Origin: Pseudomonadota bacterium
GTDB taxonomy: Bacteria; Pseudomonadota; Gammaproteobacteria; Burkholderiales; Burkholderiaceae_C
Direction: 5' to 3'
Assembly: GCA_021792835.1 (NCBI GenBank)
Contig: JAJYTY010000014.1
Coordinates: 1-35,175 of the forward strand
DNA length: 35,175 bases
Shown: positions 8,462 to 24,214 of the stretch, piece by piece
How the letters are laid out: each line of letters opens with the position of its first letter
Position numbering within the stretch: position 1 is the stretch's first letter
The notes under the pieces: generated by a model
What the model saw: only the letters and a program-made list of their open reading frames with translations
Databases searched by the model: none
Told to the model about the DNA's origin: nothing
Position numbers and translations under genes: made by a program

Positions 8462-8466
8462 GAGGC

Positions 8467-8490
8467 GGCGCGCCCTATCAGCGGCGCGCC
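8467..8490 (+). promoter_or_regulatory. GC-rich hairpin after the riboswitch, probably part of its expression platform
   Basis: Two copies of GGCGCGCC (8467–8474 and 8483–8490) can pair across an 8-base loop. They start five bases after the aptamer and end directly before an AGGAGG (8491–8496). No U run follows, so a rho-independent terminator is unlikely. Control of ribosome access is the better guess. The exact switch between structures cannot be read by eye. Confidence 0.45.
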
Positions 8491-8499
8491 AGGAGGTGC

Positions 8500-8613
8500 A
8501 TGCCCGCGGGGAGGCGGGGGCACGACTCGATCGGCGTAGTCGCCATGCTGCATGTTGGATCTCGATCCGGGTTTCTCCCCGTCCTAGCGGGGCGCTTGCC
8601 GTGCACGAACTGA
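8500..8613 (+). CDS. Possible 37-residue leader ORF overlapping the cobU start
   Basis: An AGGAGG (8491–8496) precedes an ATG at 8500 at a short three-base spacing. The frame encodes a 37-residue peptide with no recognisable domain, starting MPAGRRGHDS and ending GRLPCTN. Its stop, TGA at 8611–8613, lies 13 bases into cobU, whose GTG is at 8601. If translated, it could carry ribosomes across the hairpin at 8577–8592 and couple cobU expression to riboswitch control. There is no sign of conserved sequence, so it may be a chance frame. Confidence 0.3.
   Translation: MPAGRRGHDSIGVVAMLHVGSRSGFLPVLAGRLPCTN
8577..8592 (+). promoter_or_regulatory. Hairpin over the likely cobU ribosome-binding site
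   Basis: CCCCG (8577–8581) can pair with CGGGG (8588–8592) over a TCCTAG loop. The CGGGG arm is the only Shine-Dalgarno-like run before the cobU GTG, eight bases away, so this stem would hide it. That fits translational control under the riboswitch, but it is inference from pairing alone. Confidence 0.35.
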
Positions 8614-9149
8614 TCCTGGGCGGTCGCCGCAGCGGAAAATCCCGTTGCGCGGAGACCCGCGCGGCCGAATGGCTGCGCGTCCCGGGGCGCGACGCCTTGC
8701 TCATCGTGACGGCGATTCCCGGAGATGAGGAAATGCGCCGGCGCATCGAGCGTCATCAGGCCGAGCGCGCACTTCGCCTGCCCGCCCTGCGCACCCTGGA
8801 GGTCCCCGACGATCTCGCGCAGGCCCTGCGCGCGCACAGCGCCGCGCGGACCCTGCTCGTGGTCGATTGCCTGACCCTGTGGCTGACCCAGTTGCTGATG
8901 CCACCGAGCGGCCTCCTGGCCGATGCGGCCTCTTGCGAGCGCGATGTCGACGGGGTGGTCGACGCATTGCGTGAGGTCGAGGGGCCGGTGGTGCTGGTTT
9001 CCAACGAGATCGGCCTCGGCGTGTCGCCGCTGCAACGCGAGACGCGGCAATTCCTGGACATGCTGGGCGAACTGCACCAGCGCATCGCGGCGCTGTGCGA
9101 GCGGGTGACCTTGATGGTGGCCGGGCTCGAATGCCGGGTGAAACCATGA
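8601..9149 (+). CDS. cobU: Adenosylcobinamide kinase / adenosylcobinamide-phosphate guanylyltransferase
   Basis: The 182-residue protein (usual length ~180) phosphorylates adenosylcobinamide and then adds GMP, giving the GDP-activated intermediate used by CobS. The P-loop GGRRSGKS lies at residues 7–14. The RHQAER block with His-52 falls in the region of the guanylylated histidine of this family, and VSNEIGLGVSP is the conserved C-terminal signature. The GTG at 8601 is chosen because the family begins right at HELILGGRRSGKS; the open frame upstream is riboswitch leader and has no coding character. It is the first gene of the riboswitch-led operon and shares an ATGA with cobB. Confidence 0.95.
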   Translation: MHELILGGRRSGKSRCAETRAAEWLRVPGRDALLIVTAIPGDEEMRRRIERHQAERALRLPALRTLEVPDDLAQALRAHSAARTLLVVDCLTLWLTQLLMPPSGLLADAASCERDVDGVVDALREVEGPVVLVSNEIGLGVSPLQRETRQFLDMLGELHQRIAALCERVTLMVAGLECRVKP

Positions 9150-10459
9150 GCGGCGAGCAGGTCGTGACATGCCCGGCGATGCTGATCGCCGCACCGGCCT
9201 CTGGGCAGGGCAAGACCACCGTGACCGCGGCGATCGCGCACTGGCACCGCGCCCAGGGACGGCGGGTGCGGGTGTTCAAGAGCGGCCCGGACTTTCTCGA
9301 CCCGATGGTGCTGGAGTGGGCCAGCGGAGTCGAGGTGCGACAACTCGACTTGTGGATGGGCGGCGCGGAGCATTGCGCGGCGCTGCTCGCCACCGCCGCG
9401 CAGCAGGCGGACCTGATCCTCGTCGAAGGCGTCATGGGCTTGCACGACGGCACACCGTCGTGCGCGGATCTGGCGCTGCACTTCGATCTCCCGGTGCTCG
9501 CGGTGATCGACGCCCAGGCCATGGCCCAGACCTTCGGCGCGGTCGTCCACGGGCTGGCGACCTACCGCCCCGGTCTTCGACTGGCCGGCGCGCTGGCCAA
9601 CCGTGTCGGCAGTCCTGGCCACGCACGCATGCTGCGCGACAGCCTGCCGCCGGGCATCGCGTGGCATGGCTTTCTGGCTCGCGGACTGGATTACACGATG
9701 CCGTCGCGCCACCTGGGGCTGGTCCAGGCGGCCGAGGTGCGGGACCTGGGCAAACGCATCGCCGCCGCGGCGGACGCGCTCAGCGCGCACGGACCCTTGC
9801 CCATGCCGCCCGCGACCTGCTTTCGCGCCCCGTCGGTCTCGACACCACGTGCGCCCGGTCGTGAGCTCGATGGCCTGGGCATCGCCGTCGCGCGCGATGC
9901 GGCGTTTTCCTTCCTGTACCGGGCGAACCTGGACACGCTGGTCGAACTGGGCGCTCGACTGGAATTTTTCTCGCCCCTGGCAGACGAGCCTGTTCCGCCT
10001 TGCGTGCAGGCCCTGTACCTGCCAGGCGGCTACCCCGAACTGCATTTGCAAGAGCTGTCCGCGGCCCGGTCGTTCGGCGAATCGGTGCGCGCCCACCACG
10101 CGGCCGGATACCCCATCGTCGCCGAGTGCGGGGGCATGCTCGCGCTGCTGGACTCGCTGGCCGACGCGAGCGGGCGCCGCGCGCCCATGCTGGGCCTGCT
10201 GCCGGGGGCCGCCGAGTTGACCGACGGGCTGGTCAACCTGGGAATGCACGCGCTGCGGCTGGCGGAAGGGGAGATTCGCGGACACACCTTCCATCACGCG
10301 CGCTTGCACACCCGGCTGGAGCCGGCGCACCAGACGCTGCCGCAGCGCGACCATGGACAGCCCGAGGCGGTATTTCGCGTCGGGCGCCTGGTCGCGTCCT
10401 TTTTCCACATGTACTTTCCCAGCAACCCCTTGGCCGTGGCGGGACTGTTTCGGCCCTGA
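9146..10459 (+). CDS. cobB: Cobyrinate / hydrogenobyrinate a,c-diamide synthase
   Basis: The 437-residue glutamine-dependent amidase converts side chains a and c of the corrin ring to amides, using ATP. The N-terminal P-loop is at residues 17–24 (PASGQGKT). The C-terminal class-I-type glutaminase domain has its nucleophile Cys-328 (AECGGML) and a downstream His-421 (FFHMYF). In the oxygen-dependent route the substrate is hydrogenobyrinate, whose diamide product is the substrate of CobN. The start at 9146 overlaps the cobU stop as ATGA; an ATG at 9095 in the same frame would run deep into cobU. Length and motifs match CobB/CbiA. Confidence 0.95.
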
Positions 10460-10478
10460 TGAGCTGCGCATCTATCGC

Positions 10479-11048
10479 ATGGACATCGAGACTCCACCTA
10501 CAGCGCGGGACACCCCCAAGCCCCAGGGTGAACGGCGTGGCCTGGTCATCGTGCATACCGGCAAGGGCAAGGGCAAGAGCACCGCGGCCTTCGGGCTGGC
10601 GTTGCGCGCGTTCGGACGCGGCAAGACCGTGAAGGTCTACCAGTTCATGAAGGTTCCCTCGGCCCGTTTCGGGGAGCACCGCCTGTTCGAGAACCTGGGC
10701 ATTCCCATCGAGGGCCTCGGCGACGGGTTCAGCTGGAAAAGCCGGGACCTGGAGCACTCCGCCGAGCTGGCACGCGCGGGATGGGCGCGCGCCGAGGCCA
10801 CGCTGCTCGCCGGGGAGCATTTCATGGTCGTGCTCGACGAGATCATGTATCCGCTGCGCTATGGCTGGCTGCCCCTCGAGCCCGTCCTGACATGCCTGCG
10901 GCAGCGCCCGCCCCATGTCCACGTGGTGCTCACCGGGCGCAATGCCCCCGAGGAGCTCGTCGAGCTGGCCGATACCGTCACCGAGATGACCCTGGTCAAA
11001 CACCATTTCCAGGCCGGGGTGCCGGCCCAGCGCGGAATCGAGGACTGA
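10479..11048 (+). CDS. cobO: Cob(I)yrinic acid a,c-diamide adenosyltransferase
   Basis: The 189-residue CobO/BtuR-type enzyme transfers the 5'-deoxyadenosyl group of ATP to Co(I) corrinoids. It has the family P-loop GKGKGKS at residues 28–34. The conserved C-terminus reads [16 protein letters not shown]. The ATG at 10479 leaves a 19-base gap after cobB and gives the expected short N-terminal extension before the P-loop; no strong ribosome-binding site is visible. It needs a reduced corrinoid, and no dedicated CobR-type reductase gene is present in the window. Confidence 0.95.
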
Positions 11049-11122
11049 ACGGCCACGCTGCGCGCCGAGAGACTCGTTCGCCCCCCCCACAGCGCCAACG
11101 CCCCGAACGGACAGGACCCACC

Positions 11123-12181
11123 ATGCACATTCGCAAGATCCCCGCCACCATCGTCACGGGCTTTCTTGGCAGCGGCAAGACCACGTTGCTGCGCCATTTG
11201 CTGCAAAACGCCGAGGGACGTCGCATCGCCGTCATCGTCAACGAGTTCGGCGAAATGGGAGTGGACGGAGAGCTGTTGCGCGCCTGCGGAATCGGCTGCG
11301 ATGAAACGGGGGCATCGGATGGGCGCTTGTTCGAGCTGGCCAACGGCTGCCTGTGCTGCACGGTGCAGGAGGAGTTCGCGCCGGTGATGGAGCAGCTGGC
11401 GGCGAGGCGGGAGCAAATCGATCATCTGCTGATCGAGACCAGCGGCCTGGCGCTTCCCAAGCCCCTGGTACAGGCCTTCCAGTGGCCCGCGCTGCGCAAC
11501 GCCTTCACCGTGGACGCGGTGATCGCGGTAGTGGACGCACCGGCCGTGTCGCAAGGCAGGTTCGCGGACGACCCGCAGGCCGTGGACGCGCAGCGCAGGG
11601 CCGACGACAACCTGGATCACGAGTCCCCGCTGGCCGAATTGTTCGAGGACCAGTTGGCGAGCGCCGACCTGGTGATCGTGCACAAGACCGACGCCATCGA
11701 CGCCGATGCGTTGCAGCAGGTTTTCGATGTCGTGCGCCGACACACGGGCACCGGAGTCAAGCAGCTGACGGCCCAGCACGGCCGCGTCGATCCGGAGCTG
11801 CTGCTGGGGCTGGGTCGGGCGGTGGAGGACTCCATCGATCAGCGCAGGACGCACCACGACGACGAGCAGGACCACGATCACGACGCCTTCGACTCGATCA
11901 GCCTGCAGGTGCAGGCCGACGATCGCGGGCGCCTGCTGGCGGCATTGCGGGACCTGGTCGAGCGCCACGAAATCTATCGCGCCAAGGGCTTCGTGGCACT
12001 GCCGGGAGCCGCGATGCGTCTCGTGGTGCAGGGCGTGGGGGCCCGCTTCGACAGTTATTTCGACCGCGCTTGGGGGGCACAGGAGCCGCGCGAATCCCGC
12101 ATCGTGTTCATCGGTCGTGACTTGCAGCACGCCGCGCTGCAGTCGCAATTGCGCCGGGCGCTGACCGGAGAGGGCCTGTGA
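11123..12181 (+). CDS. cobW: CobW-type GTPase, putative metal chaperone
   Basis: The 352-residue COG0523 family G3E GTPase has a P-loop GFLGSGKTT (13–21) and the metal-binding C76-L-C78-C79 motif in NGCLCC. A histidine/aspartate-rich stretch (THHDDEQDHDHD) precedes the C-terminal CobW domain. Family members bind and deliver metals; CobW in B12 operons is thought to supply Co(II). Its place directly before cobN fits cobalt delivery to the chelatase. It follows a 74-base gap containing a C8 run, the longest gap among the early genes. The start is the ATG at 11123, which begins the family sequence (HIRKIPATIVTGFLG). Confidence 0.93.
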   Translation: MHIRKIPATIVTGFLGSGKTTLLRHLLQNAEGRRIAVIVNEFGEMGVDGELLRACGIGCDETGASDGRLFELANGCLCCTVQEEFAPVMEQLAARREQIDHLLIETSGLALPKPLVQAFQWPALRNAFTVDAVIAVVDAPAVSQGRFADDPQAVDAQRRADDNLDHESPLAELFEDQLASADLVIVHKTDAIDADALQQVFDVVRRHTGTGVKQLTAQHGRVDPELLLGLGRAVEDSIDQRRTHHDDEQDHDHDAFDSISLQVQADDRGRLLAALRDLVERHEIYRAKGFVALPGAAMRLVVQGVGARFDSYFDRAWGAQEPRESRIVFIGRDLQHAALQSQLRRALTGEGL

Positions 12182-12245
12182 GCCCCCGGCTGCTGCCGGA
12201 CAGCCGCTGCATGCGCCCGGCGTCGAGGCCTGCGCGGAATCGGCC

Positions 12246-15200
12246 ATGCACCTGCTGAGTACGCGCCCCGGCGGGCATGTGGAGGACGGCGGACAGGGAG
12301 TCGTGCGCGTGGCGCAGACTCCGGCGCAGGTGGTCGTACTGAGCGCCGCAGACACCACCCTCGGGCTGCTGGCCGAGGCGGTGCGGGAGCTCGGCCCGGA
12401 CTACCCCAGCGTGCGCCTGGCCAACCTCATGTGGCTGCGCCAGCCGGCCTCCGTGGACCTGTATGTCGAGGATGTGCTGCGTCAAGCCAGGGTCGTGGTC
12501 ATCGACCACCTGGGAGCTCCGAGCGACTGGGCCTACGTGGTCGAGCGCGCGATGTCGCTGGCGCGCGAGCGGGGCCAGTGGCTGGCCATGTTTTCCGGCG
12601 AGTCCAGCGAGGACCAGCAGTTGTTGTTGCGTAGCACAGCGCCGGAGCACGAATGCCGGCAGTTGTGGCGCTACCTGCGAGAGGGTGGCGCAGACAACGC
12701 GCGCGGATTCTTTGCCCTGATCGGCCAGGCGGCCTTCGGCCTCGGCACGCGGCCGCCTCCGCCGGCGCCGCTGTCCTCGACCTTGCCGTACTCGGCGCCC
12801 GGCCTTTCAGCGCCCGCCGGCGCGCAGGCGCCGGCCGTACTGCTGGTGTTCTACCGCGCCCACGTGCAGGCAGGCAACACGGCGGTGTTCGACGCCATGC
12901 TCGGCGCGTTGACCTCGGCCGGCATGCATGCGCTGGCACTCGCCGTCGATTCGCTCAAGAATCCGGCCAGCCTGGCTGCCGTGCAGACCCTGTGCCGACA
13001 GCAAGGCGTGAGCGTGGTGCTCAACGCGACCCATTTCGCGCTGGCCCAGCAGGACCCCCAAGGCTCGCAGAGCCAGGCCCTGGGGGGCGATGCTGTGGTG
13101 CTGCAGCTCATCACCGCGGGTCGCGAGCGAGAGCAATGGGAGGTGGATCCCCACGGGCTGGCGCCGCGCGACCTGGCGATGCAGGTGGTACTGCCGGAGA
13201 TCGACGGGCGCGTCCTGACCCGCGCCATCAGTTTCAAGGGCGTCTCCTGGCGCTGTGAGCGCACCGAACTCGACGTCGTGCGCTACCAGCCCGAGCCCGA
13301 GCGCATGGCGTTTGTCGCCGAGTTGGCCCGGCGTTGGTGCCTGCTGCGCGACAAGCCGAACGCGGCCAAGCGTATTGGTCTGGTCCTGGCCAATTACCCC
13401 GTCGACGATTCGCGCATCGCCAACGGCGTCGGCCTGGACACGCTGGCGTCGACGGTGGATGTGCTGCACGCGCTGCGCGGTGCGGGCTACGCCACCGGCG
13501 ACGCGCTGCCCGAGCACGGCGACGAACTGGTCGCACGGTTGCTGCGGGGCGTCACCAACGACTCCGCGTGCAACCCCTCCCGGCCGGCCCTGCAGAGTCT
13601 TTCGCTGGCCGACTATCGAGACTGGTTCGAGCAGTTGCCGCGGGCCAATCGCGACGCTGTCGAACGGCAATGGGGCGGGCCCGAGGACGACCCGGCGCTG
13701 CGCAACGGGCGTTTCCCGATCACCGGACTGCGCCTGGGCGGCGTGTTCGTCGGCATCCAGCCTGCGCGGGTGCGCGAGCTGGCCGACGTGAGCGCCACCT
13801 ACCACGACGCCGAAATGGCGCCGCCGCATCACTACCTGGCCTTCTACGCCTGGTTGCGCCGGGTGTTCCGCGTGGACGCGCTGGTGCACGTGGGGACCCA
13901 CGGCAACCTGGAATGGCTGCCGGGCAAGAGCGTGGCGCTGAGCGCGCAGTGCTGGCCCGATGCCGTGCTCGGGCCGCTGCCCCATGTCTATCCCTTCATC
14001 GTCAACGACCCGGGCGAGGGCAGCCAGGCCAAGCGCCGCAGCCAGGCCGTGATCATCGACCATCTGATGCCTGCGCTGACCCGTGCTGAGACCTACGGAC
14101 CGCTGCAGCAGCTCGAGCGCCTGATGGACGAGTACTACGGCGCGCTGACCCTCGACCCGGCGCGCGCCAGGCGACTGCGCGACGACATTGTGCAGCGCCT
14201 GTACCAGCATGGGTTGCGGCAGGAGTTGCAAGGTGGCTCGGCAGCCCAAGACGACACGCCAGACGGCCTGCTGCAGCGCCTCGACGCGTATTTGTGCGAA
14301 ATCAAGGAATCGCAGATCCGCGACGGCCTGCATGTGCTGGGCCGCTCGCCGAGCGGCCCAGCACGGGTCGATACCTTGCTGGCGCTGGCCCGGCTGCGCC
14401 GAGGGCCGGGCGGAGGCCAGCAGAGCCTGCTGTGCGCATTGGCGCATGACCTTCAGCTCGACGCGAGCGATGCCGCATTCGACCCCCTGGCCCCGGACTG
14501 GGCTGCGCCGTGGACCGGCCCTCGACCGGCGGTGCTGCAGGCCATGGGATCCCAGCCCTGGCGCCATGCGGGACATACGCTCGAGCGCCTGCAGGTGCTG
14601 GCCACCAAGCTCGTCGAGGGTTATGTCGTGGCCGCGGAACCCGAACGGCACGGCGACCGCGACCCGCCCCCGGCGTGGCTGCCAGCGATCGACGGCTGGC
14701 CGCGCACGGCGCATGTCCTGCAGGACATGCGCGAGACCCTTCTGCCGCGCCTGGACGCCTGTGGACCGCAGGAGATGACCCAGCTGCTACGTGCGCTGGA
14801 GGGACGCTTCGTGCCCCCGGGCCCCAGCGGTGCGGCCTCGCGCGGGCGTCCGGACGTTCTGCCCACCGGGCGCAATTTCTATTCGGTGGACACCCGTGCC
14901 GTGCCGACGCCCACCGCGTATGCGATGGGGGCGGCGGCGGCCGAGCGACTGATCGAGCGGCATCTGCAGGATCACGGCGCGATGCCCGGCGCGGTCGGCC
15001 TCTCGATGTGGGGCACCAGCACGATGCGCACCGGGGGCGAGGACATGGCCCAGGCCTTCGCATTGCTGGGGGTGCGGCCGAAATGGGACGAAGGCAGTGG
15101 GCGCGTGGTCGATATCGAGGTGTTGCCGATGGCCATGCGCAACCGCCCGCGTGTCGATGTGACCCTGCGGGTTTCGGGATTCTTCCGGGACGCCTTTCCC

Positions 15201-16085
15201 AACTTGATCGACTTGTTCGACACCGCTGTGCGCGCGGTGGCGCAGCTCGGCGAAGCCGACGAGCCGGACGAGGTCAACCCCATCCGCGCCAGGGTGTTGC
15301 GCGAGCGCGATCGCGCCAGCCAGGCCGGCGTGGCGGGGGAGCGAGCACTGCGCCAGGCCACCTGGCGGGTTTTCGGGCCGCGTGCGGGAAGTTATGACGT
15401 CGGCGTGCAGGCGCTGGTCGAGAGCGGGCGCTGGCAGCAGCGCGATGACCTTGCCCGGGCCTACCTGGACAGCAGTGGGTTCGCTTACGGCCAGGGCGAA
15501 CACGGGGCCGCTGCCAGCGGCTCGCTGCAAGATCGCCTGGCCGGCATGGACGCCATCGTGCACAACCAGGACAACGCCGAATACGATCTGCTCGACTCGG
15601 CGGACCATGCCCAGTTCCAGGGCGGCATGTCGGCCGCGGTCGAGGCGCTGCGCGGCTCAGCGCCGGCCCTCTATCACGGTGACCTCAGCGTGCCGGGCGC
15701 GCCGCGCGTTCGTAGTCTGCGCGAGCAGATCGCCCGTGTGGTGCGCGCGCGCGCCGTCAACCCCAAGTGGCTCGAAGGGATCCGCCGTCATGGCTACCGC
15801 GGCGGCGCCGAGATCGCCGCCACGGTCGACCACCTCTTCGCCTTCGACGCGACCACCGGCCAGGTGGACGACCACCAGTACGCGCTGCTCGCCGACGCCT
15901 ATGTCCACGATCGCGCGACCCGCGAGTTCCTGCAGCGCCACAATCCCGGCGCATTGCGCCGGATCGGCGAGCGTCTGCTGGAAGCCATGCAGCGTGGACT
16001 TTGGAAACAGCCGGGCTCCCAGCGCGAGCGCATCGAGCAGGAGTTGCTGGCGCTGGAACAGCGTATCGAGGACCAGGAACCGTGA
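12246..16085 (+). CDS. cobN: Aerobic cobaltochelatase large subunit
   Basis: The 1279-residue CobN/BchH-type subunit binds hydrogenobyrinate a,c-diamide and inserts Co(II) with ATP supplied by AAA+ partners. Length matches the family (~1250). The typical core HVGTHGNLEWLPGKSVALS, with NDPGEGSQAKRR shortly after, is present, as are the later MWGTSTMRTGGED and NPKWLEGIRRHGYRGG blocks. The start at 12246 leaves a 64-base gap after cobW. The GTG at 12178 overlapping the cobW stop is in another frame. Its partners here are the ChlI-like and VWA frames that follow, not CobS/CobT of the alphaproteobacterial type. Confidence 0.95.
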   Translation: MHLLSTRPGGHVEDGGQGVVRVAQTPAQVVVLSAADTTLGLLAEAVRELGPDYPSVRLANLMWLRQPASVDLYVEDVLRQARVVVIDHLGAPSDWAYVVERAMSLARERGQWLAMFSGESSEDQQLLLRSTAPEHECRQLWRYLREGGADNARGFFALIGQAAFGLGTRPPPPAPLSSTLPYSAPGLSAPAGAQAPAVLLVFYRAHVQAGNTAVFDAMLGALTSAGMHALALAVDSLKNPASLAAVQTLCRQQGVSVVLNATHFALAQQDPQGSQSQALGGDAVVLQLITAGREREQWEVDPHGLAPRDLAMQVVLPEIDGRVLTRAISFKGVSWRCERTELDVVRYQPEPERMAFVAELARRWCLLRDKPNAAKRIGLVLANYPVDDSRIANGVGLDTLASTVDVLHALRGAGYATGDALPEHGDELVARLLRGVTNDSACNPSRPALQSLSLADYRDWFEQLPRANRDAVERQWGGPEDDPALRNGRFPITGLRLGGVFVGIQPARVRELADVSATYHDAEMAPPHHYLAFYAWLRRVFRVDALVHVGTHGNLEWLPGKSVALSAQCWPDAVLGPLPHVYPFIVNDPGEGSQAKRRSQAVIIDHLMPALTRAETYGPLQQLERLMDEYYGALTLDPARARRLRDDIVQRLYQHGLRQELQGGSAAQDDTPDGLLQRLDAYLCEIKESQIRDGLHVLGRSPSGPARVDTLLALARLRRGPGGGQQSLLCALAHDLQLDASDAAFDPLAPDWAAPWTGPRPAVLQAMGSQPWRHAGHTLERLQVLATKLVEGYVVAAEPERHGDRDPPPAWLPAIDGWPRTAHVLQDMRETLLPRLDACGPQEMTQLLRALEGRFVPPGPSGAASRGRPDVLPTGRNFYSVDTRAVPTPTAYAMGAAAAERLIERHLQDHGAMPGAVGLSMWGTSTMRTGGEDMAQAFALLGVRPKWDEGSGRVVDIEVLPMAMRNRPRVDVTLRVSGFFRDAFPNLIDLFDTAVRAVAQLGEADEPDEVNPIRARVLRERDRASQAGVAGERALRQATWRVFGPRAGSYDVGVQALVESGRWQQRDDLARAYLDSSGFAYGQGEHGAAASGSLQDRLAGMDAIVHNQDNAEYDLLDSADHAQFQGGMSAAVEALRGSAPALYHGDLSVPGAPRVRSLREQIARVVRARAVNPKWLEGIRRHGYRGGAEIAATVDHLFAFDATTGQVDDHQYALLADAYVHDRATREFLQRHNPGALRRIGERLLEAMQRGLWKQPGSQRERIEQELLALEQRIEDQEP

Positions 16086-17215
16086 GCACTTTTTCGAACG
16101 AATTGCCGAGTCCCGTCGTGTCGACCTCGCAGCCTGTGTCAGCGCCCCTGGAGGCGTTTCCCTTCAGTGCCCTGGTCGGGCAACAGAGCCTGCAGCACGC
16201 GCTGCTGCTGGCGGCCGTCGATCCGGGTATCGGCGGAGTGCTGATCAGCGGGCCGCGGGGCACGGCCAAATCCACCGCGGCTCGTGCGCTGGCTGCGCTG
16301 CTGCCGCCCGGAGCACAGGGACAGCCCGCCCCGTTCGCCACCTTGCCGCTGGCCGCCAGCATGGAACAACTTGTCGGCACGCTGAGCGTGGAGCATGCCT
16401 TGCGCGAGGGACGGGTGTGTTTTTCACCCGGCCTGCTCGCACGAGCGCATGGCGGCGTGCTGTACGTCGACGAAGTCAATCTTTTGCACGATTCGCTGGT
16501 CGATGCCTTGCTGGACGCTGCCGCCAGCGGCGTCCACAGCATCGAGCGTGACGGGATCTCCCACCGACATGCGGCGTGCTTCGTGCTGCTGGGCACGATG
16601 AACCCGGAGGAGGGGGAGCTTCGACCCCAGTTGCTGGATCGCTTCGGACTCTCGGTCACCCTGCCCAATCCCGCGGACCTTGAGCAACGCGTGGCCATCC
16701 TGCGGGCGCGCCTGGAGTTCGATGAACGGCCGCTCGAGCTGGTCGCCCGACATGCTTCCGACCAGGCACGCATCGCCGAGTCGATTGTGCTGGCGCGTCG
16801 CCTGCTCGCGCGCATCGCCTGGCCCGAATCCGTGGTACAGCACGCGGCAACACGCGCCCTCGCGGCCGGGGTCGACGGGGTTCGCGCGGACCTTGTCATG
16901 CTGCGAGCCGCGCGCGCGCTGGCAGCCCTCGGCGGAGGGGTCGAGGTGATGCCCGAGCATGTCGACGCCGTCGCCGAGCTCGCGCTGGCGCATCGGCGAA
17001 CGCAAGCTCAGGAAGGCAGCGCTGGTGCCGCCGCGCCGCAAGCGAGTTCGATCACCGGACAAGCCGAGCCGCTCGGCGCAGCGCCTGCCGCTTCGTGGCA
17101 GCCACTGCCGGGTTCGAACGCCGACGCCGACGCCAACTGGGGAGCCCAGGCGCCGGTGCCGACGGCCATGGCTCGCGTGATGCCGGCGGGGGGCTGGCCA
17201 GGAAAAAAAGCATGA
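16082..17215 (+). CDS. ChlI/BchI-like AAA+ ATPase, cobaltochelatase small subunit; also N-terminal part of a predicted ChlD-like fusion
   Basis: The 377-residue protein has a Walker A at 57–64 (GPRGTAKS), a Walker B around D130–E131 (VLYVDEVNLL), the arginine-rich LLDRFGL sensor region and a helical lid. It belongs to the Mg-chelatase I-subunit family and should power CobN. The GTG at 16082 overlaps the cobN stop (GTGA) and is the only start near the family N-terminus. The last ~70 residues are a low-complexity linker rich in Ala, Gly and Pro, as in ChlD proteins. The frame ends WPGKKA-stop immediately after an A7 run. A -1 slip there leads into the VWA frame, so this sequence is probably used twice: alone as subunit I, and fused as subunit D. 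Confidence 0.92.
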   Translation: MSTFSNELPSPVVSTSQPVSAPLEAFPFSALVGQQSLQHALLLAAVDPGIGGVLISGPRGTAKSTAARALAALLPPGAQGQPAPFATLPLAASMEQLVGTLSVEHALREGRVCFSPGLLARAHGGVLYVDEVNLLHDSLVDALLDAAASGVHSIERDGISHRHAACFVLLGTMNPEEGELRPQLLDRFGLSVTLPNPADLEQRVAILRARLEFDERPLELVARHASDQARIAESIVLARRLLARIAWPESVVQHAATRALAAGVDGVRADLVMLRAARALAALGGGVEVMPEHVDAVAELALAHRRTQAQEGSAGAAAPQASSITGQAEPLGAAPAASWQPLPGSNADADANWGAQAPVPTAMARVMPAGGWPGKKA

Positions 17216-17263
17216 GCCACCACGCCCGAACCCGGCTCCTCGGCCGTGACGGTGCGCGGTGGC
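17188..17263 (+). other. Predicted -1 programmed ribosomal frameshift signal joining the AAA+ and VWA frames
   Basis: In the ChlI frame the codons read GGA AAA AAA GCA TGA, so the heptamer A_AAA_AAA lies at 17203–17209. Six bases later a stem can form: GCCACC-A-CGC (17216–17225) with GCG-C-GGTGGC (17254–17263), nine pairs with one A·C mismatch. A G6 run (17188–17193) nine bases upstream could act as a Shine-Dalgarno-like stimulator. A -1 slip reads on as KK-SMSHHARTR and gives a 609-residue AAA+-linker-VWA protein, close to ChlD length. Such frameshifting is known for chlD genes next to cobN; the assignment here is by pattern. Confidence 0.75.
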
Positions 17264-17910
17264 ACAACCCAGGCTCCCGGCTCGAGGACCCCGGCCTGCG
17301 CACCCGCGAGCGCCTGCCCCGCGGGCGCTCGATCTCATGGTTGCCGAGTTTGCTGCGCAAGGGCGCTGGTCCGCTGCGGCATTCCCATCTGTGCTGGCGC
17401 GAACCGTCGGCGCGGGCTGCGCGCCTGCACCTGATCGTGCTCGACACTTCGGGATCCATGCGACGCAGGGGCCAGCTCGAGTTGGCCAAGGGGCACGCTG
17501 CGATGCTCATCGAACAGGCCGCGTGCACTGGCGACGACGTGGCGGTATTGAGCTTCGGAGGGCAGGGCGTGCACCTTCTGCTCGCCCCGCGCCCCGCACG
17601 GCGCTCCGGCGGCGAGCGGATCCGACCCCTGGGCGGCGGCGGCGGTACGCCGCTGGCACAAGCCCTGGCGCAGGCCCAGGCGCTGCTGCTGCGTGCGGCG
17701 CGTCGCTGCGGCGACGCGGACGGCTCGCGCAGCTGTCTGTGGCTGCTTACCGACGGCCGAACCCTGGAGCAGCCTGCAGCTCCTGCAGCCGCCGGGCGGA
17801 TCGTCGTCGTCGACTTCGACCAGGCCCCCGTGCGCCTCGGCCGCTGCCCGCAACGGGCGGTGCGGTGGGGAGCTGAATATCGCAAGCCCATCCTGCCCCG
17901 CGAATCATGA
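17212..17910 (+). CDS. VWA-domain chelatase component (ChlD-like C-terminal part)
   Basis: The frame encodes 232 residues from the ATG at 17212. It has a complete MIDAS metal site for a von Willebrand A fold: D78-T-S-G-S-M, T146 in GGGTPLA and D181 in LLTDGR. This corresponds to the C-terminal third of Mg-chelatase subunit D, which couples the AAA+ ring to the large subunit. Its ATG overlaps the stop of the AAA+ gene (ATGA), so it could be made separately by re-initiation. The slippery A7 and stem-loop at this junction make a fused D subunit more likely. The ATG lies directly after the slip site, and no good ribosome-binding site is seen apart from the A-rich run AGGAAAAAAA. Confidence 0.88.
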   Translation: MSHHARTRLLGRDGARWHNPGSRLEDPGLRTRERLPRGRSISWLPSLLRKGAGPLRHSHLCWREPSARAARLHLIVLDTSGSMRRRGQLELAKGHAAMLIEQAACTGDDVAVLSFGGQGVHLLLAPRPARRSGGERIRPLGGGGGTPLAQALAQAQALLLRAARRCGDADGSRSCLWLLTDGRTLEQPAAPAAAGRIVVVDFDQAPVRLGRCPQRAVRWGAEYRKPILPRES

Positions 17911-18323
17911 ACCCCACCGAAGCCGAACCGGACCTTTCCCGGGCGCATCCCTCGGACTTGCTGATCTGCATCACCTGCCGCCCCCAGGGCGTGTCGCGCG
18001 AAGTCCCGGCCGCCGGGCAGACCCTGCTCGACCAGGCCGTGGCCTTGTGCTCCGCGGGCGACGCTGCCGTCGTGCGGGTGAGACCGGTGGCCTGCATGAA
18101 TGGCTGCGAGCACGCGTGCACCGCGGCGCTGCAGGCCCCCGGCAAGACCACTTATTTTTTCGGGGGGCTCGAGCCCCATGCCGAGACCGCGGCACAACTG
18201 CTCGACTGCGCGCGCCTGCACGCGTGCCGAGCGGACGGCCTGATGGCCCGCAACGAAAGGCCGGAGCGTTTGCGCGGGACCTTGCTGGCCAAGCTGCCGG
18301 CCTACGACACGGCGCGGGGCTGA
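17907..18323 (+). CDS. DUF1636 family protein, possible iron-sulphur or metal-binding partner
   Basis: The 138-residue soluble protein matches the DUF1636 pattern: an N-terminal CITCRPQG (C21, C24) and a CMNGCEHAC cluster (C63, C67, C71), with a further C48. The layout recalls thioredoxin-fold 2Fe-2S ferredoxins. The family is often found in B12 gene clusters and its function is not established. It overlaps the VWA frame as ATGA and precedes cbiB by five bases, so it is clearly part of the operon. A role in cobalt handling or in electron supply for corrinoid reduction is only a guess from context. Confidence 0.8.
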   Translation: MNPTEAEPDLSRAHPSDLLICITCRPQGVSREVPAAGQTLLDQAVALCSAGDAAVVRVRPVACMNGCEHACTAALQAPGKTTYFFGGLEPHAETAAQLLDCARLHACRADGLMARNERPERLRGTLLAKLPAYDTARG

Positions 18324-18328
18324 GCATC

Positions 18329-19231
18329 ATGCATCGGATGTTTGCCGCCGCCCTGGTGATCGCCTGGACCCTGGACGCATGGTTCGGCGAGGCCCCGAAC
18401 AGCGTCCACCCCGTGGCCTGGCTGGGGCGGGTGCTCGGCCCCATGGGGCGGCGCCTGTGCAGTTGGCAGCCTATGGCGGCCCTGGCGGGCGGCACGCTGG
18501 CCTGGCTGGCGATCGCCGCTGCGCTGGCCGGGACCAGCTACTGGCTGCAGCGCGAACTGGAGGCCTGGCCGTGGTGGCTTGGCGCTCTCGCGATGGGCTG
18601 CCTGCTCAAGCCGTGTTTCGCGTGGCGCATGCTGCGCGACGAGGTCGCCGCGGTGGAGCAGGCCTTGGGCCAGTCCTTGCAGGCCGGGCGCGAACGCGTG
18701 GCGCGATTGGCCAGCCGCGACGTGAGCCGGCTGCAGGCTTGCGAGGTGCGTGAGACGGCCATCGAGACCCTGGCGGAAAACCTCAACGATTCGGTGCTTG
18801 CCCCCTTGCTGTGGTTCTCGCTGGCCGGCTTGCCCGGTGCCGTGGTCTACCGCTTCGCCAACACCGCCGATGCCATGTGGGGCTACCGCGGGCGTTACGA
18901 ATGGGCTGGCAAGTTCGCGGCTCGCGCCGACGACCTGCTTTCGTGGCTGCCGGCGCGCCTGAGCGCCGCGCTGCTGTGCCCTTCGCCGCGCCGCTGGGCG
19001 GAGATGCGGCGGCAGGCCGCGCTCACACCGTCTCCCAATGGTGGCTGGCCGATGGGTGCGATGGCCCTGCGCCTGGGCGTCAGCTTGCGCAAGCCCGGGG
19101 TCTATGCCCTGAACGAGCAGGCCGGATCGCCCGAGCCGCGACACACTGCGCTGGCACTGCGCATCGCCACGCGAGCGGCCTGGCTGGGCATGCTGGCCGC
19201 CTTGCTGACTTGCGCGTGGAGTGGAACATGA
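18329..19231 (+). CDS. cbiB: Adenosylcobinamide-phosphate synthase (CbiB; CobD in Pseudomonas naming)
   Basis: The 300-residue inner-membrane protein attaches aminopropanol phosphate (or aminopropanol) to the f side chain of adenosylcobyric acid. It has four or more hydrophobic segments (for example FAAALVIAWTLDAWFG and TLAWLAIAAALAGT). Family motifs include HPVAWLGR, RDVSRLQACEVRETAIETLAEN and NTADAMWGYRGRYEWAGKFAARADD. The ATG at 18329 starts exactly at the family N-terminus. The stop overlaps the next gene as ATGA, and that gene makes the aminopropanol phosphate it uses. Confidence 0.95.
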   Translation: MHRMFAAALVIAWTLDAWFGEAPNSVHPVAWLGRVLGPMGRRLCSWQPMAALAGGTLAWLAIAAALAGTSYWLQRELEAWPWWLGALAMGCLLKPCFAWRMLRDEVAAVEQALGQSLQAGRERVARLASRDVSRLQACEVRETAIETLAENLNDSVLAPLLWFSLAGLPGAVVYRFANTADAMWGYRGRYEWAGKFAARADDLLSWLPARLSAALLCPSPRRWAEMRRQAALTPSPNGGWPMGAMALRLGVSLRKPGVYALNEQAGSPEPRHTALALRIATRAAWLGMLAALLTCAWSGT

Positions 19232-20259
19232 GCGAGCCGGCCGAACGCGTGCACGGCGGCCCGGACGCGCGGGGTCGCGCGCGCTGGGATTTCTCCACCA
19301 ACGTCAATGCCGCGGGGCCCTGTCCGCAGGCCATGCAGGCCCTGGCCCGGGCCGATGCCACGAGCTACCCCGACCCCGCCTACCACGACCTGCGCGAGCG
19401 TCTGGCGGCCCGGCATGCGGTGAGCCCGCGACGCATCCTGCTGGCGGCCAGCGCCAGCGAATTCATCCAGCGGGTCACCGCCGTCGGCCAGCGCCTTGCA
19501 CCGGGCGCCGTGCAGGTGCCTGCGAGAGCCTACGGAGACTATGCGCTGGCGGCACGAGCCTGCGCGCGCGCGCTGCTGGTCGACCCCGCAGAGCGCGCCA
19601 CCCTGCGTTGGTGCGCCGACCCGAGCAGTCCACTGGGTCAGGACGCGCCGCCGATGGGCGATGCCGCCGAGGTACCGACGGTGCTCGACCTCGCCTACGC
19701 TCCACTGCGCCTTTACGGCTCGTCCGCGTGGGATGGCGAGGCCGGCAGGGCCGTGTTCCGGCTGTACAGCCCGAACAAGGCGCTGGGTCTGCCCGGCATA
19801 CGCGGCGCCTATGCGATCGCTCCCGAGGTTGCGCAGTGGCCGGTGGATGACTGGTGCCGCGCGCTGCGTGCTGCGGAACCCTCGTGGCCGCTGGGTGCGC
19901 ACGCGCTGGCGGTGCTCGAATGCTGGACCGAGCCCTCCACGCAGGCGTGGCTCGACTGCGCGCGAAGCACCTTGCGTGCGTGGGTGGCCGAACTGCGCCA
20001 GGGGCTCGATGCGCTGGGCCTGCAGCCGGCGTCCAGCGTCACTCCGTTCCTGTGCGCCCGCGTCGGGCCGGGGGCCACGCCGCGGGCGTTGCGGGAGCAC
20101 GGCCTGGCGGTACGCGACGCCACCTCCTTCGGCATGCCGGGCTGGATGCGCCTGTCCGCGCAGCCACCGCTGGCCCTGCGCGCCTTGTTCGACACCCTGG
20201 GCCGGTTGCTGCACGCAGCCGCGCCGACCTCTCCCTCGCCAGAAGTTCAAGCTCCATGA
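19228..20259 (+). CDS. cobD: L-threonine-O-3-phosphate decarboxylase, aminotransferase fold
   Basis: The 343-residue class I/II PLP enzyme has the FSTNVNAAGPCP N-terminus typical of the CobD/CobC family and the PLP lysine K184 in SPNKALGLPG. A C-terminal arginine-containing MPGWMRLS closes the active site. It makes (R)-1-aminopropan-2-ol phosphate for CbiB. The length is close to the usual ~330–360. The start overlaps the cbiB stop and its own stop overlaps cobT, both as ATGA. The gene is called cobC in Pseudomonas naming. No threonine kinase (PduX or BluE) is seen nearby to supply its substrate. Confidence 0.92.
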   Translation: MSEPAERVHGGPDARGRARWDFSTNVNAAGPCPQAMQALARADATSYPDPAYHDLRERLAARHAVSPRRILLAASASEFIQRVTAVGQRLAPGAVQVPARAYGDYALAARACARALLVDPAERATLRWCADPSSPLGQDAPPMGDAAEVPTVLDLAYAPLRLYGSSAWDGEAGRAVFRLYSPNKALGLPGIRGAYAIAPEVAQWPVDDWCRALRAAEPSWPLGAHALAVLECWTEPSTQAWLDCARSTLRAWVAELRQGLDALGLQPASSVTPFLCARVGPGATPRALREHGLAVRDATSFGMPGWMRLSAQPPLALRALFDTLGRLLHAAAPTSPSPEVQAP

Positions 20260-21314
20260 TCCCGACCATTCCCGAGTTCGACAACACCGCGTTGCGCGGC
20301 AAGCTGCAGGCGCGCATCGACGGCAAGACCAAGCCAGTGGGCTCGCTGGGACGCCTGGAGGCGCTGGCCGTGCAGCTGGGTTGCATTCTCGACAGCCTGG
20401 ATCCGCAACTCGTGCAGCCGCAACTGGTGGTGTTCGCGGCAGACCACGGCCTGGCCGCGCATGGCGTGTCGGCCTATCCCAGCGACGTCACCTGGCAGAT
20501 GGTGGAAAACTTCCTCGCCGGGGGTGCCGCGGTCAGCGTGCTGGCGCGCCAGCACGGCCTGGCCTTGAGCGTGGTCGACGCCGGCGTGCGTCACGATTTC
20601 GCTCCCCGCGCAGGCCTGCTGCAGCGCAAGATTGCCGCCGGCACCGCCGACGCGCTCGACGGTCCGGCGATGAGCGCGGCGCAATGCGCGGCGTCGATTG
20701 GCGCCGGGCGCGAACTGCTGCGCGAGCTGCCGGGCAATGTCCTGCTTCTGGGCGAGATGGGCATCGGCAATACCTCGGCGGCGTCGCTGCTGCTGGCGCG
20801 GCTCGCGCAACAACCCATCGAAGCGTGCGTCGGGCGAGGAACCGGGCTGGACGATGCCGGGCTGCAGCGCAAGCTCGAAGTCCTGCGGCAGGTGCTCGCG
20901 CGTCATCCGCAGGCGGTCGAGCCGCTGCAGGCCCTGGCGGCGTTCGGCGGATTCGAGATCGCGATGATGACCGGGGCGGTGTTGCAGGCCGCCTTGGAGC
21001 GCAGGGTCATCGTGGTCGACGGTTTCATCACGGCCAGCGCGGTGCTGGTGGCTTCGCGCCTGCAGCCGCACGTGTTGTCGCGCTGCGTGTTCGCGCATCG
21101 TTCCGATGAAACCGGGCATGGACGGATGCTGCAGGCGCTGGGCGCGCAGCCGCTGCTCGATCTGTCGCTGCGTCTGGGCGAGGGCTCGGGGGCTGCCCTG
21201 GCCTGGCCTTTGCTCGAGTCGGCATGCCGTCTGCTGGGCGAAATGGCAAGTTTCGATTCCGCCGGGGTCAGCCAGCGCACCGGTGCCGACGACGAGGGGG
21301 TCGCGACGCGATGA
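20256..21314 (+). CDS. cobT: Nicotinate-nucleotide–dimethylbenzimidazole phosphoribosyltransferase
   Basis: The 352-residue enzyme makes alpha-ribazole phosphate from nicotinate mononucleotide and the lower-ligand base. Family motifs are KPVGSLGRLE near the N-terminus, FAADHGLAAHGVSAYP, GEMGIGNTSAAS, and the catalytic Glu-309 in LGEGSGAAL. It joins the BluB product (5,6-dimethylbenzimidazole) to the nucleotide loop. It is linked by ATGA overlaps to cobD before it and cobS after it. Confidence 0.96.
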   Translation: MIPTIPEFDNTALRGKLQARIDGKTKPVGSLGRLEALAVQLGCILDSLDPQLVQPQLVVFAADHGLAAHGVSAYPSDVTWQMVENFLAGGAAVSVLARQHGLALSVVDAGVRHDFAPRAGLLQRKIAAGTADALDGPAMSAAQCAASIGAGRELLRELPGNVLLLGEMGIGNTSAASLLLARLAQQPIEACVGRGTGLDDAGLQRKLEVLRQVLARHPQAVEPLQALAAFGGFEIAMMTGAVLQAALERRVIVVDGFITASAVLVASRLQPHVLSRCVFAHRSDETGHGRMLQALGAQPLLDLSLRLGEGSGAALAWPLLESACRLLGEMASFDSAGVSQRTGADDEGVATR

Positions 21315-22141
21315 AACGGCAGCTTCGCCTGATCCTGCTCGCACTGCAGTTCCTGACGCGTCTGCCGCTGCCGGCGGACCCCGACTTCGAGCCTTCCCGC
21401 CTGCGCGCGTGCGCCGGCTATTTTCCGTTGGCGGGAGCCGTGATCGGTGCCTGGGCGGGGCTCGTGCTGATGTTCGCGCTGCGCGTGTGGCCGCCGCTAG
21501 TGGCCGCCGCGCTCAGCCTGGCCGCCACCGTCTGGCTGACCGGGGCATTGCACGAGGACGGCCTGGCGGACTCCGCCGACGCCCTGGGTTCGCGCGTGAG
21601 CCGCGAGCGTGCGCTGGAGATCATGAAGGACTCGCGCATCGGCAGCTATGCGGCGGTCGCCGTGGGGCTGGCGCTGGTGTTGCGCGTGGCCTGCATGGCC
21701 GAGCTGGCACGGCCGGCAGGCGCGACCGCCTGGGCGGCGCTGGCGCTGATCGCCTCGCACGCGCAGTCGCGCGCCGCGCCGGTATGGATCATGCGGCGGC
21801 TTCCCTACGCCGCCGATGCGGGCCGCGCCAAGGCCGCGCCCCTGGCGCAAAGGGTGCGCGGTGCCACCGCGTTCGCGGCCTTGGCGTGGGGCTGCGCCCT
21901 GAGCGTGGGAAGCGCGCTCGCGGCGGCCCGACTGGCTGGCTGTTCCTGGGGCGATGCGCTGGGCCTGGCTGGCAGCGGGCTCGCCGCCGTGGCGGCAGCC
22001 ACGCTGCTCGCCGAGCGCTGGCTGCATGCGCGCCTCGGTGGCTTCACCGGCGACACCCTGGGCGCCGTGCAGCAAGTGGCCGAGATGGTGGGGTTGCTGG
22101 TCTGGCTGGCCTGGCTGCCCGCCGGCCCGATTCGATCATGA
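21311..22141 (+). CDS. cobS: Adenosylcobinamide-GDP ribazoletransferase (cobalamin synthase)
   Basis: The 276-residue integral membrane enzyme joins adenosylcobinamide-GDP and alpha-ribazole (phosphate). It shows the family sequence ALQFLTRLPLP at the N-terminus, then the acidic metal-binding HEDGLADSADAL and the EIMKDSRIGSYAA motif, with several hydrophobic helices. The start at 21311 overlaps cobT (ATGA). This is the last condensation step apart from removal of the phosphate by CobC, whose gene follows with another 4-base overlap. Confidence 0.95.
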   Translation: MKRQLRLILLALQFLTRLPLPADPDFEPSRLRACAGYFPLAGAVIGAWAGLVLMFALRVWPPLVAAALSLAATVWLTGALHEDGLADSADALGSRVSRERALEIMKDSRIGSYAAVAVGLALVLRVACMAELARPAGATAWAALALIASHAQSRAAPVWIMRRLPYAADAGRAKAAPLAQRVRGATAFAALAWGCALSVGSALAAARLAGCSWGDALGLAGSGLAAVAAATLLAERWLHARLGGFTGDTLGAVQQVAEMVGLLVWLAWLPAGPIRS

Positions 22142-22734
22142 CCCGCGCGCAAGCCGAGCTCTGGGTCTGGCGCCATCCCCGTGTCGAGGGGGCCGACCAG
22201 CGCTGCATCGGGCGGGCCGACCCCGCCCCGGACCCGCGGCGCGCACGGCGCCTGGCCGATCGCATCCGTCGCACCGCGCGCCGCCACGGGCTGGCGAGGT
22301 ACGTGGTGAGCTCGCCATCGCGGCGCTGCGCCGCGGTCGCGCGCTGGCTCAGGCGCTGGGGCTGGCGCCACGAGCGCTTCGAGGCTCTGCTGGAGATGGA
22401 TTTCGGCGATTGGGAGGGCCGAGCCTGGAGCGACATCGGACGCGAGCCCGTCGAGGCGTGGTGCGCCGACTTCCTGCGTCACCGGCCCGGCGGCGGGGAA
22501 AGCCTGGTGGACATGCTTGCCCGCGTCGGCGCCTGGCAGGCCCCGCCGGGCACGGTCGTGGTCGCGCACGCGGGCTGGATGCTGGCGCGGCGCTGGCTGG
22601 AGCGAGATGGCGGCCTTCCCGAGCACGCCGGGCAGTGGCCGGCGGCGCCCCGACACGGCGAGCTGTGGCTCTTGCCCGCCGCCTGCCTGCCGCTGCCCGC
22701 GCCTGCACAACCGGAGCCCGCACATGGCGCGTAG
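22138..22734 (+). CDS. cobC: Alpha-ribazole-phosphate phosphatase, histidine phosphatase superfamily
   Basis: The 198-residue protein of the phosphoglycerate-mutase fold has the catalytic histidine in WRHPRV, SSPSRRCAAVA with the conserved arginines, the acid/base glutamate in LLEMDFGDWEG and the second histidine in VVAHAGW. The first motif is RHP where RHG is usual, but the catalytic residues are present. It probably removes the 5'-phosphate from adenosylcobalamin phosphate or alpha-ribazole phosphate. The start overlaps cobS (ATGA). The stop lies 11 bases inside cobQ. Confidence 0.85.
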   Translation: MTRAQAELWVWRHPRVEGADQRCIGRADPAPDPRRARRLADRIRRTARRHGLARYVVSSPSRRCAAVARWLRRWGWRHERFEALLEMDFGDWEGRAWSDIGREPVEAWCADFLRHRPGGGESLVDMLARVGAWQAPPGTVVVAHAGWMLARRWLERDGGLPEHAGQWPAAPRHGELWLLPAACLPLPAPAQPEPAHGA

Positions 22735-24214
22735 CCTGATGGTCTGGGGTACCAGCAGTGGCGCCGGCAAGAGCCTGCTGTGCACGGCCATTTGCCGCTG
22801 GGCGTCGCGGCGCGGCATCGACGTGGCCCCGTTCAAGGCGCAGAACATGAGCAACAACGCGCGGGTCGTCCCCGGGCCGCGGGGCGAGCATGGCGAGATC
22901 GGCGCGGCTCAGTACTTCCAGGCGCTGGCCGCGAGCGTGCAGCCGACCGTGGACATGAACCCGGTGCTGCTCAAGCCGGAGCGCGACACCGCAAGCCAGG
23001 TCGTGCTGCAAGGCGGCGTGCGCCATGATCTTTCCCGCCTGGCGTGGCGCGAGCGCAGCAGCATCCTGGCCGTCGCGGCGCGGGAGAGTTTCCTGCGGGT
23101 GCTCGACAGACATGCGGTGGTGGTGATCGAAGGGGCCGGCTCGCCGGCCGAGATCAACCTGGCCGAACACGATTACGTCAACCTGGGTACCGCGCGCTGG
23201 GCGCAAGCGGCGGGCACGCTGCACAGCCTGCTGGTCAGCGACATCGACCGCGGAGGAGCCTTCGCGCACCTGTACGGCACCTGGGCGCTGCTGCCGCCCG
23301 AGTTGCGCGACACCCTGCGTGGTTTCGTGCTCAACAAGTTTCGCGGAGATCCCGGGCTGCTCAGCCCCGGCCCGGAGTCGCTGCGCGAGCGCACGGGGGT
23401 TCCGGTGGTGGCCGTGCTGCCCATGCGCCGCGGCCACGGCCTGCCGGAGGAAGACGCCTTGTTCGACGCCTCGCCCACGCCGGCGCGGGGACCGGTGCGC
23501 CAGCGCGTGGCCGTGGTCGCGTATCCGCGCATGAGCAACGCCGACGAGTTCCAGCCCTTGCGTCACGTGCCTGGCCTGCAGCTGCTGTGGGCGCGTGACG
23601 AGGCCGATCTGGAGCACGCCGACTGGATCGTGCTGCCCGGTTCCAAGCAGGTCAGCGGGGACTTGCGCTGGCTGCGCGAGCGCGGGCTGGATATCTGCAT
23701 CGCTCGACACGCGCGCCAGGGCAGGCGTGTGCTGGGTATCTGCGCGGGCCTGCAGATGCTCGGGGCCGAGTTGCACGATCCCCAAGGCCTGGACGGCGAA
23801 CCCGGATCGAGCGAGGGGCTGGGCCTGCTGCCCCTCCGCACACGCTACGCGGCGCCCAAGCGGGTACTGCGCGTGCGCGCCCGATTCGCCGGGCTGCGGC
23901 CGCCCTGGCAGGCGCTCGACCATGTCGAGGTGACGGGCTACGAGATTCGCAACGGAGTCACCGATCCCCGCGCCACCAGCACGCCCGACGCCGACGTCGA
24001 GGTGGTGCTGCGCGACGACGTCGGCACGGCCATCGGCTGGCAGCGCGGGCCGGTACTGGGGGTGTACGCGCACGGGCTGTTCGAATCCCAGGCAGTGATG
24101 CAAGGCCTGTTCGATTCCCAGGTGCCCACGCTGGATACGGCGTTCGACGCCCTGGCCGACCTGGCCCAGGCTTGCTTCGCGCCCGACACCCTGGAGCGTT
24201 GGTTGCAACCATGA
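22724..24214 (+). CDS. cobQ: Cobyric acid synthase
   Basis: The 496-residue glutamine-dependent enzyme amidates side chains b, d, e and g of adenosylcobyrinate a,c-diamide. The N-terminal dethiobiotin-synthetase-like domain has the P-loop GTSSGAGKS and the CobQ signature FKAQNMSNNA. The C-terminal glutaminase domain has Cys-340 (GICAGLQML) and His-450 (YAHGLFE). The ATG at 22724 gives the exact family N-terminus (MARSLMVWGTSSGAGKS) and overlaps cobC by 11 bases. Length is normal. Confidence 0.96.
   Translation: MARSLMVWGTSSGAGKSLLCTAICRWASRRGIDVAPFKAQNMSNNARVVPGPRGEHGEIGAAQYFQALAASVQPTVDMNPVLLKPERDTASQVVLQGGVRHDLSRLAWRERSSILAVAARESFLRVLDRHAVVVIEGAGSPAEINLAEHDYVNLGTARWAQAAGTLHSLLVSDIDRGGAFAHLYGTWALLPPELRDTLRGFVLNKFRGDPGLLSPGPESLRERTGVPVVAVLPMRRGHGLPEEDALFDASPTPARGPVRQRVAVVAYPRMSNADEFQPLRHVPGLQLLWARDEADLEHADWIVLPGSKQVSGDLRWLRERGLDICIARHARQGRRVLGICAGLQMLGAELHDPQGLDGEPGSSEGLGLLPLRTRYAAPKRVLRVRARFAGLRPPWQALDHVEVTGYEIRNGVTDPRATSTPDADVEVVLRDDVGTAIGWQRGPVLGVYAHGLFESQAVMQGLFDSQVPTLDTAFDALADLAQACFAPDTLERWLQP

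Follow-up and report, generated by a model that had tools for sequence, protein, structure and literature searches.

The stretch of DNA analysed here (the window) comprises 35,175 nucleotides of contig JAJYTY010000014.1, from a bacterium of the order Burkholderiales, and directly downstream of cobN it carries a locus in which the frame of a ChlI-like AAA+ protein is overlapped by a second frame that encodes a VWA domain. The comparisons described below make it highly probable that this locus is a frameshifted chlD-type gene (fs-chlD) which provides CobN with its two AAA+ partners for inserting cobalt in the aerobic synthesis of B12. Frame 0 would be read by most ribosomes, which end at 17215 and give a ChlI-like small subunit. 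Some ribosomes would instead slip back one base on the heptamer A_AAA_AAA, aided by a stem immediately downstream of the stop and possibly by a G-rich Shine-Dalgarno (SD)-like element upstream, and would continue in the VWA frame to give a ChlD-like medium subunit of 609 residues. Both products would share the AAA+ domain and arise from one mRNA. What we infer from the sequence is that slippage takes place in the source organism, at whatever rate, and that both products act together with CobN.

The locus and its predicted products

All features of the locus lie on the forward strand. Frame 0 (16082-17215) opens at GTG 16082 and ends with the TGA at 17213-17215, and it encodes a protein of 377 residues that has the motifs GPRGTAKS (Walker A), DEVNLL and LLDRF and the C-terminus ...WPGKKA. 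Its last codons are ...GGA AAA AAA GCA TGA..., which places the putative slip site at 17203-17209 (A-AAA-AAA-GCA-TGA in frame 0) and the last base of the stop six bases past the heptamer. The -1 frame (17209-17910) encodes a linker and the VWA domain with its MIDAS residues (DxSxS, T, D). Its ATG at 17212-17214 overlaps the frame-0 TGA, forming an ATGA at 17212-17215. A -1 slip would join 376 residues to the 233 codons that follow (232 residues if translation begins at ATG 17212), giving 609 residues with the junction ...GKK/SMSHH. An earlier note on this DNA had given these frames, the heptamer, the stop and products of 377 and 609 residues, and direct reading and arithmetic on the sequence reproduce them. 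Upstream of the stop lie a G-rich SD-like element (17188-17193), a candidate stimulator of slippage by its anti-SD duplex energy, and an AGGA (17200-17203) eight nucleotides before the VWA ATG, a candidate SD for re-initiation with an anti-SD duplex of -4.3 kcal/mol.

The first frame matches Pfam Mg_chelatase and AAA_lid_2, and the second matches VWA_2. Both frames match, in order, the NCBIfam model TIGR02442, a single-open-reading-frame putative cobaltochelatase model 641 positions long: the best stretches are 84-317 for the first frame and 468-583 for the second, with scores of 374.3 bits and 64.5 bits, neither of which reaches the 779.45 set as cut-off for the whole protein. Two frames that match successive parts of one model have the appearance of a split single protein. 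An alignment of seven proteins (A2) shows the MIDAS residues to be invariant. The AAA+ protein of the window gave no match to TIGR01650, the CobS model, at E <= 0.001. When the genome of the window (G000, 95.27% complete) was searched for ChlI-type genes with TIGR02030 at 1e-40, the only match was the window's own, and a separate gene for a ChlI-type small subunit was not found.

Conservation of the slip site

The junction was compared in a set of 95 distinct split-frame junctions, made up of the window and 94 relatives. The loci were chosen by similarity of the VWA protein and not by the A-run; of the 414 given by a scan of genome contigs, the named loci are the best 80; 9 of 12 plasmid matches were fetched for comparison, and the junction counts describe the closer relatives. 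Excluded from the set were L002, L003, L060 and L061 (the window locus or a close copy), L083 and L124 (the same stretch as L017 and L026), L023 (irregular), L039 (its AAA+ match lies some 1.2 kb away and was deemed spurious), and L042 and L107 (loci without an AAA+ match). Outside the junction analysis stand L001 and L044-L059, and five loci (L005, L006, L040, L041 and L043) had no VWA match at its limit. Loci in which both parts are fused in a single frame number 14 in the linker test and 16 in an earlier classification, where L041 and L043 were marked as fused.

The VWA frame is at -1 in all 95 junctions (95 of 96 if L023 is counted). The A-run is 7 bases long in 88, 6 in 4 and 8 in 3; a run of 7 or 8 stands right before the stop in 91 junctions and a run of 6 in the other 4, and the distance from the end of the run to the frame-0 stop is 3 bases in 91/95 and 4 bases in 4/95. 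The stop codon itself varies (TGA in 80, TAG in 14 and TAA in 1). The A7 of the window is its sole A/T run of at least 7, and across the 988,740 bases of the flanks in the 94 relatives such runs number 32; the A-run, present as A6-A8 at every junction, is thus conserved above background, and no homologue that keeps both frames without it was found among the 95. Between the run and the MIDAS motif the -1 frame is open in 95/95, the +1 frame in 51/95 and frame 0 past its stop in 44/95, and in L017 and L080 the VWA frame begins to be open precisely at the slip codons. The AAA+ motifs are also kept across the set: Walker A in 93/95, DE-N-L in 93/95 and L-DRF in 91/95. The two loci without Walker A, L075 and L086, contain only a partial AAA+ protein (192 and 28 residues, respectively).

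The fused homologues, which have one open frame, differ from the window in that none of the 14 has an A-run of at least 6 in its linker; A5 runs occur in the linkers of four. A hidden slip site that would yield a short product from the fused genes was considered and ruled out on this ground. Four of the loci with single-frame ChlD-type genes (L009, L010, L012 and L015) come from genomes G404, G319, G233 and G312, and searches of these found no second ChlI-type gene and no CobS-like gene scoring above 40 bits.

The stem after the stop codon

A stem of nine pairs and one mismatch (A.C), formed by 17216-17225 with 17254-17263, had been pointed out in the earlier note. It exists, and it is the outer helix of a stem-loop (17216-17263) in the minimum free energy fold of 17210-17275 (-30.2 kcal/mol; 9/200 shuffles as good). 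Folding energy was nevertheless rejected as proof of the stem, being weak for this short stretch (z = -1.86) and for a longer one (z = -0.20). The argument for the stem comes from comparison. A 10-pair helix directly after the stop was counted on a MAFFT alignment of the 95 junctions (A3) against 500 shuffles. Its cells were paired in 86.7%, compared to a shuffled mean of 75.4% and to 31-48% in slid versions of the helix, and none of the 500 shuffles was as high. Cells with a double change numbered 117 vs 45.6 in the shuffles (0/500 as high), and further pair types 24 vs 16.4 (reached by 0/500). Less striking is how many of the pairs show a double change: 7 of the 10, a count that 29/500 shuffles also reached. 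Double changes are found mainly in columns 38-89 (41 cells), 35-92 (32), 40-87 (17) and 39-88 (15) of A3, and there is hardly any variation in column pairs 32-95, 33-94 and 36-91. Cells are unpaired at 37-90 in 36/95, at 39-88 in 44/95 and at 40-87 in 25/95. With RNAfold, an outer stem at the stop, defined by thresholds that we set ourselves (at least 5 pairs, a span of at least 31 nucleotides, within 2 nucleotides of the stop), was obtained for 92/95 junctions vs 1270/3513 control windows. The stem was missed in L028, in L140 and in L007, where a shorter hairpin of 8 pairs takes its place.

Frameshifting, re-initiation and other explanations

The earlier note had also proposed that ribosomes may restart at ATG 17212 after the stop. 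The window does allow this, with AGGA eight nucleotides upstream and with four-nucleotide start/stop overlaps possible at 11 of the 13 gene junctions listed in the cluster, the AAA+/VWA junction included (the starts were picked by eye; that of cobQ is no start codon and is counted among the two without overlap, and cbiB-cobD was excluded). A start of the VWA gene at the AAA+ stop, the feature of a coupled gene pair, is not a conserved trait: it overlaps the frame-0 stop in 10/95 junctions, the window among them, and in 82/95 the VWA frame contains no ATG, GTG or TTG between positions -12 and +30 relative to the stop. On the protein tree the overlapping start needs five changes while the A-run stays. 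There is no ATG between the run and the MIDAS motif in 61/95, and there is one in 34/95. Two separate genes joined by translational coupling only, in which the VWA part is reached by restarting and no fusion is needed, are therefore improbable. Besides the sporadic start, coupling would leave unexplained the A-run, the stem and a -1 frame that is open ahead of the first start. Because the run and the open -1 frame are kept, the start is sporadic and the fused homologues lack the run, the conserved element in these comparisons is the frameshift signal and not a start codon at the stop. Re-initiation may still add to frameshifting. Since AGGA lies eight bases before the ATG and ATGA-type overlaps are frequent in the cluster, an extra free VWA product is possible in the lineage of the window. 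A combination of the frameshift fusion with a stand-alone VWA protein, three products in all, would be compatible with the fs-chlD explanation, and it is a less likely prospect in view of the sporadic start in relatives. We know of no role for a free VWA protein. The co-occurrence of both mechanisms has been reported in seven clusters of frameshifted genes in the part of Antonov et al. (2013; PMC3711429) that we draw on, and the window has the parts of the frameshift signal alongside ATG and AGGA.

Two further explanations have little to recommend them. Transcriptional slippage at the A-run could also produce a -1 reading, and poly-A runs can slip in transcription, for which runs with n > 7 are named in the sections of PMC3711429 used here; the run is only 7 bases long in 88/95 junctions and 6 in 4/95, and covariation in a stem that keeps a fixed position behind the stop would, going by known signals, point to ribosomal shifting. 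We consider this very unlikely. A sequencing error or a decayed and split ordinary chlD could be imagined since fused single-frame homologues exist, but the same kind of junction is present in another genome of the genus (G022) and in 94 other distinct loci, which makes the chance of it negligible; sequencing error in particular was rejected on account of this recurrence.

A G-rich SD-like element is suggested as a further stimulator by the anti-SD duplex 5-20 nucleotides upstream of the run, which is -9.4 kcal/mol in the window and reaches -6 kcal/mol or lower in 45/95 junctions vs 7.9% of 2659 control stretches. The same bases also encode a G-W-P peptide that is common to many relatives, and the enrichment is thus not decisive.

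Several observations weigh against the fs-chlD explanation. The ATG at 17212 and its upstream AGGA offer a route to the VWA part without slipping, and each of the 95 junctions has some ATG, GTG or TTG in the part of the VWA frame that leads from the run to the MIDAS motif, so that a downstream VWA start is possible everywhere. As for the stem, a longer fold (17170-17290) keeps it but has an energy that is ordinary for GC-rich sequence (z = -0.20; 73/200 shuffles as good), the shuffle control for the helix ignores the relatedness of the sequences, and RNAalifold on the whole of A3 gave no consensus structure (0 pairs), perhaps because the 3' arms are misaligned in several sequences. The Cupriavidus locus L023 has an A6 and a different frame relation. 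Finally, the genome also has CobS/CobT-like genes, and medium subunits other than the fusion may be available. When these points are set against the comparisons of run, spacing, frame and stem, the latter still support the programmed -1 frameshift giving ChlI-like and ChlD-like products that the earlier note had predicted.

The irregular L023 lies on a plasmid of Cupriavidus sp. EM10 (about 2793-2900). Its stop is upstream of the A6 run and its AAA+ and VWA matches share a frame that a stop interrupts between the two, either by an assembly indel or as a different arrangement.

CobS/CobT-like genes in the genome

The earlier note placed the locus among bacteria lacking CobS/CobT, and this setting does not hold, as the genome has CobS-like and CobT-like genes outside the window. 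The CobS-like gene scores 510.1 bits, below the curated cut-off of 558.55. CobT-like pieces stand at two contig ends, with 44.1 and 26.1 bits (cut-off 26.1), and one of them matches TIGR01651 at 227 bits, where the cut-off is 759.05. The domains CobS_N, CobT and CobT_C were found in these genes. A CobS-like gene of at least 500 bits is present in 4 of the 12 split-frame genomes tested (G000, G022, G522 and G547), and the absence of CobS/CobT is, on these matches, no strict feature of the split-frame set. Among the 16 other genomes of the same genus, 6 have a CobS-like gene of at least 500 bits and none has a CobN match (0/16). Because genomes of the genus carry the CobS-like gene without CobN, the orphan CobS/CobT-like pair of the window's genome probably predates an acquired B12 island. 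The loci concerned are L051-L056 and, in the window's genome and together with CobT-like pieces, L058 on contig C8 and L059 on contig C140.

The cobalamin cluster and its distribution

The aerobic cobalamin cluster spans 8227-33100 of the window. It is preceded by a cobalamin riboswitch on the forward strand at 8227-8461 (Rfam RF00174, 59 bits; gathering threshold 31.5). The cobN gene (12246-16085, forward strand) encodes a large cobaltochelatase subunit of 1279 residues (TIGR02257, 1477.9 bits; cut-off 822.05), is the only CobN match in the genome, and lies directly upstream of the AAA+ frame, the start of which its stop overlaps by 4 nucleotides (GTGA). The locus thus has an adjacent cobN within the cluster of a B12 producer. 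On the other side follows a DUF1636 gene (PF07845; 17907-18323, forward strand), whose start overlaps the VWA stop as ATGA. Genes in the window match most steps of the aerobic route, among them CobW, CobN, CobB, CobQ, CobG, CobH, CobI, CobJ, CobM and CobF, as well as BluB, a precorrin-6A reductase and a CbiE-CbiT fusion of the CobL type.

VWA matches at E <= 1e-10 were present in 11 of 369 genomes in a sample of the class and in 20 of 399 in a sample of the order, the window's genome being counted in both. Within the genus a close copy occurs only in the window's genome and in G022 (2 of 25 genomes, again with G000 counted); a third match, in G021, is weak (5.2e-4), and for the VWA gene none was seen in the 23 other genomes sampled. 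Over 19.3 kb (window 8248-27513 vs L060 on contig C33) the identity to the copy in G022 is 98.5%, although that genome is classed as another species of the genus. In a quick protein tree (no bootstrap) the window stands on a long branch inside a mainly Comamonadaceae group. Plasmid records gave 12 matches, including Methylibium sp. T29 and T29-B, whose similar plasmid cluster aligns with 80% of a 12.5-kb query at 74.9% DNA identity. The near-identity to G022, the lack of a close copy in the other genomes sampled from the genus and the plasmid cluster together look like a recent horizontal transfer. In the public annotation of the Methylibium plasmid locus L017 (8139-8684), the VWA protein is begun 135 nucleotides after the AAA+ stop, which omits the linker that a frameshift would add; in L018, L020 and L025 it is likewise begun 87, 132 and 30 nucleotides after the AAA+ stop.

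Relation to known systems

In the part of their study that bears on this family, Antonov et al. (2013) described a -1 cluster of 23 frameshifted magnesium-chelatase genes in six genera, and cassettes of the fs-chlD family gave frameshifting in E. coli of 10% with A7, 40% with A9 and 63% with A11 (PMC3711429). Atkins (2016) stated, in the section concerned, that A_AAA_AAR is under strong purifying selection and that the potential for structure is strong while the sequence of the structure is not strongly conserved (PMC5009743). According to the relevant portion of Kuznetsov (2022), the small and medium subunits for CobN are supplied by fs-chlD genes (PMC9227772), and the idea is cited for archaeal viruses and their hosts in a passage of PMC8651126. 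The window locus shares with fs-chlD the overlapping AAA+ and VWA frames, the -1 direction, the A_AAA_AAR slip site, the downstream structure and the proposed service to CobN in B12 producers. It differs in having an ATG that overlaps the stop, in the manner of coupled genes as elsewhere in the cluster, and in belonging to a genome that also has CobS/CobT-like genes. On these features the locus is well supported as a member of the already known fs-chlD family, and it is no new kind. Covariation of the stem over 95 junctions was not met in the portions of the fs-chlD literature available to us and may be in Antonov 2020.

The putative three-part signal, with a candidate SD-like element, an A-rich slip site and a hairpin, resembles that of dnaX gamma/tau as outlined in part of PMC3711429, but the shift gives the short product in dnaX and would give the long product here. 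The CobS and CobT proteins of CobNST are the AAA+ partners of CobN, the same role as is proposed for the window proteins; they differ from these in that the window's AAA+ protein does not match TIGR01650, and the CobS/CobT-like pair lies elsewhere in the genome. A more speculative scheme, which we think rather unlikely, is that the 16-base stretch AGGAAAAAAAGCATGA serves at once as slip site, SD and start, and stop, giving the ChlI-like protein, the ChlD-like fusion and a free VWA protein, and that the CobS/CobT-like pair forms a second set of AAA+ partners which might compete for the single, horizontally acquired CobN.

This locus adds to the known recoding family a clear case and a comparative test, in which the run and the covarying stem persist while the start at the stop comes and goes. 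The comparison thereby separates frameshifting from re-initiation as the conserved mechanism. The presence of CobS/CobT-like genes does not exclude a frameshifting chlD, and public annotation, as for the Methylibium plasmid, can list what would be the medium subunit of the chelatase as a short 'VWA domain-containing protein'.

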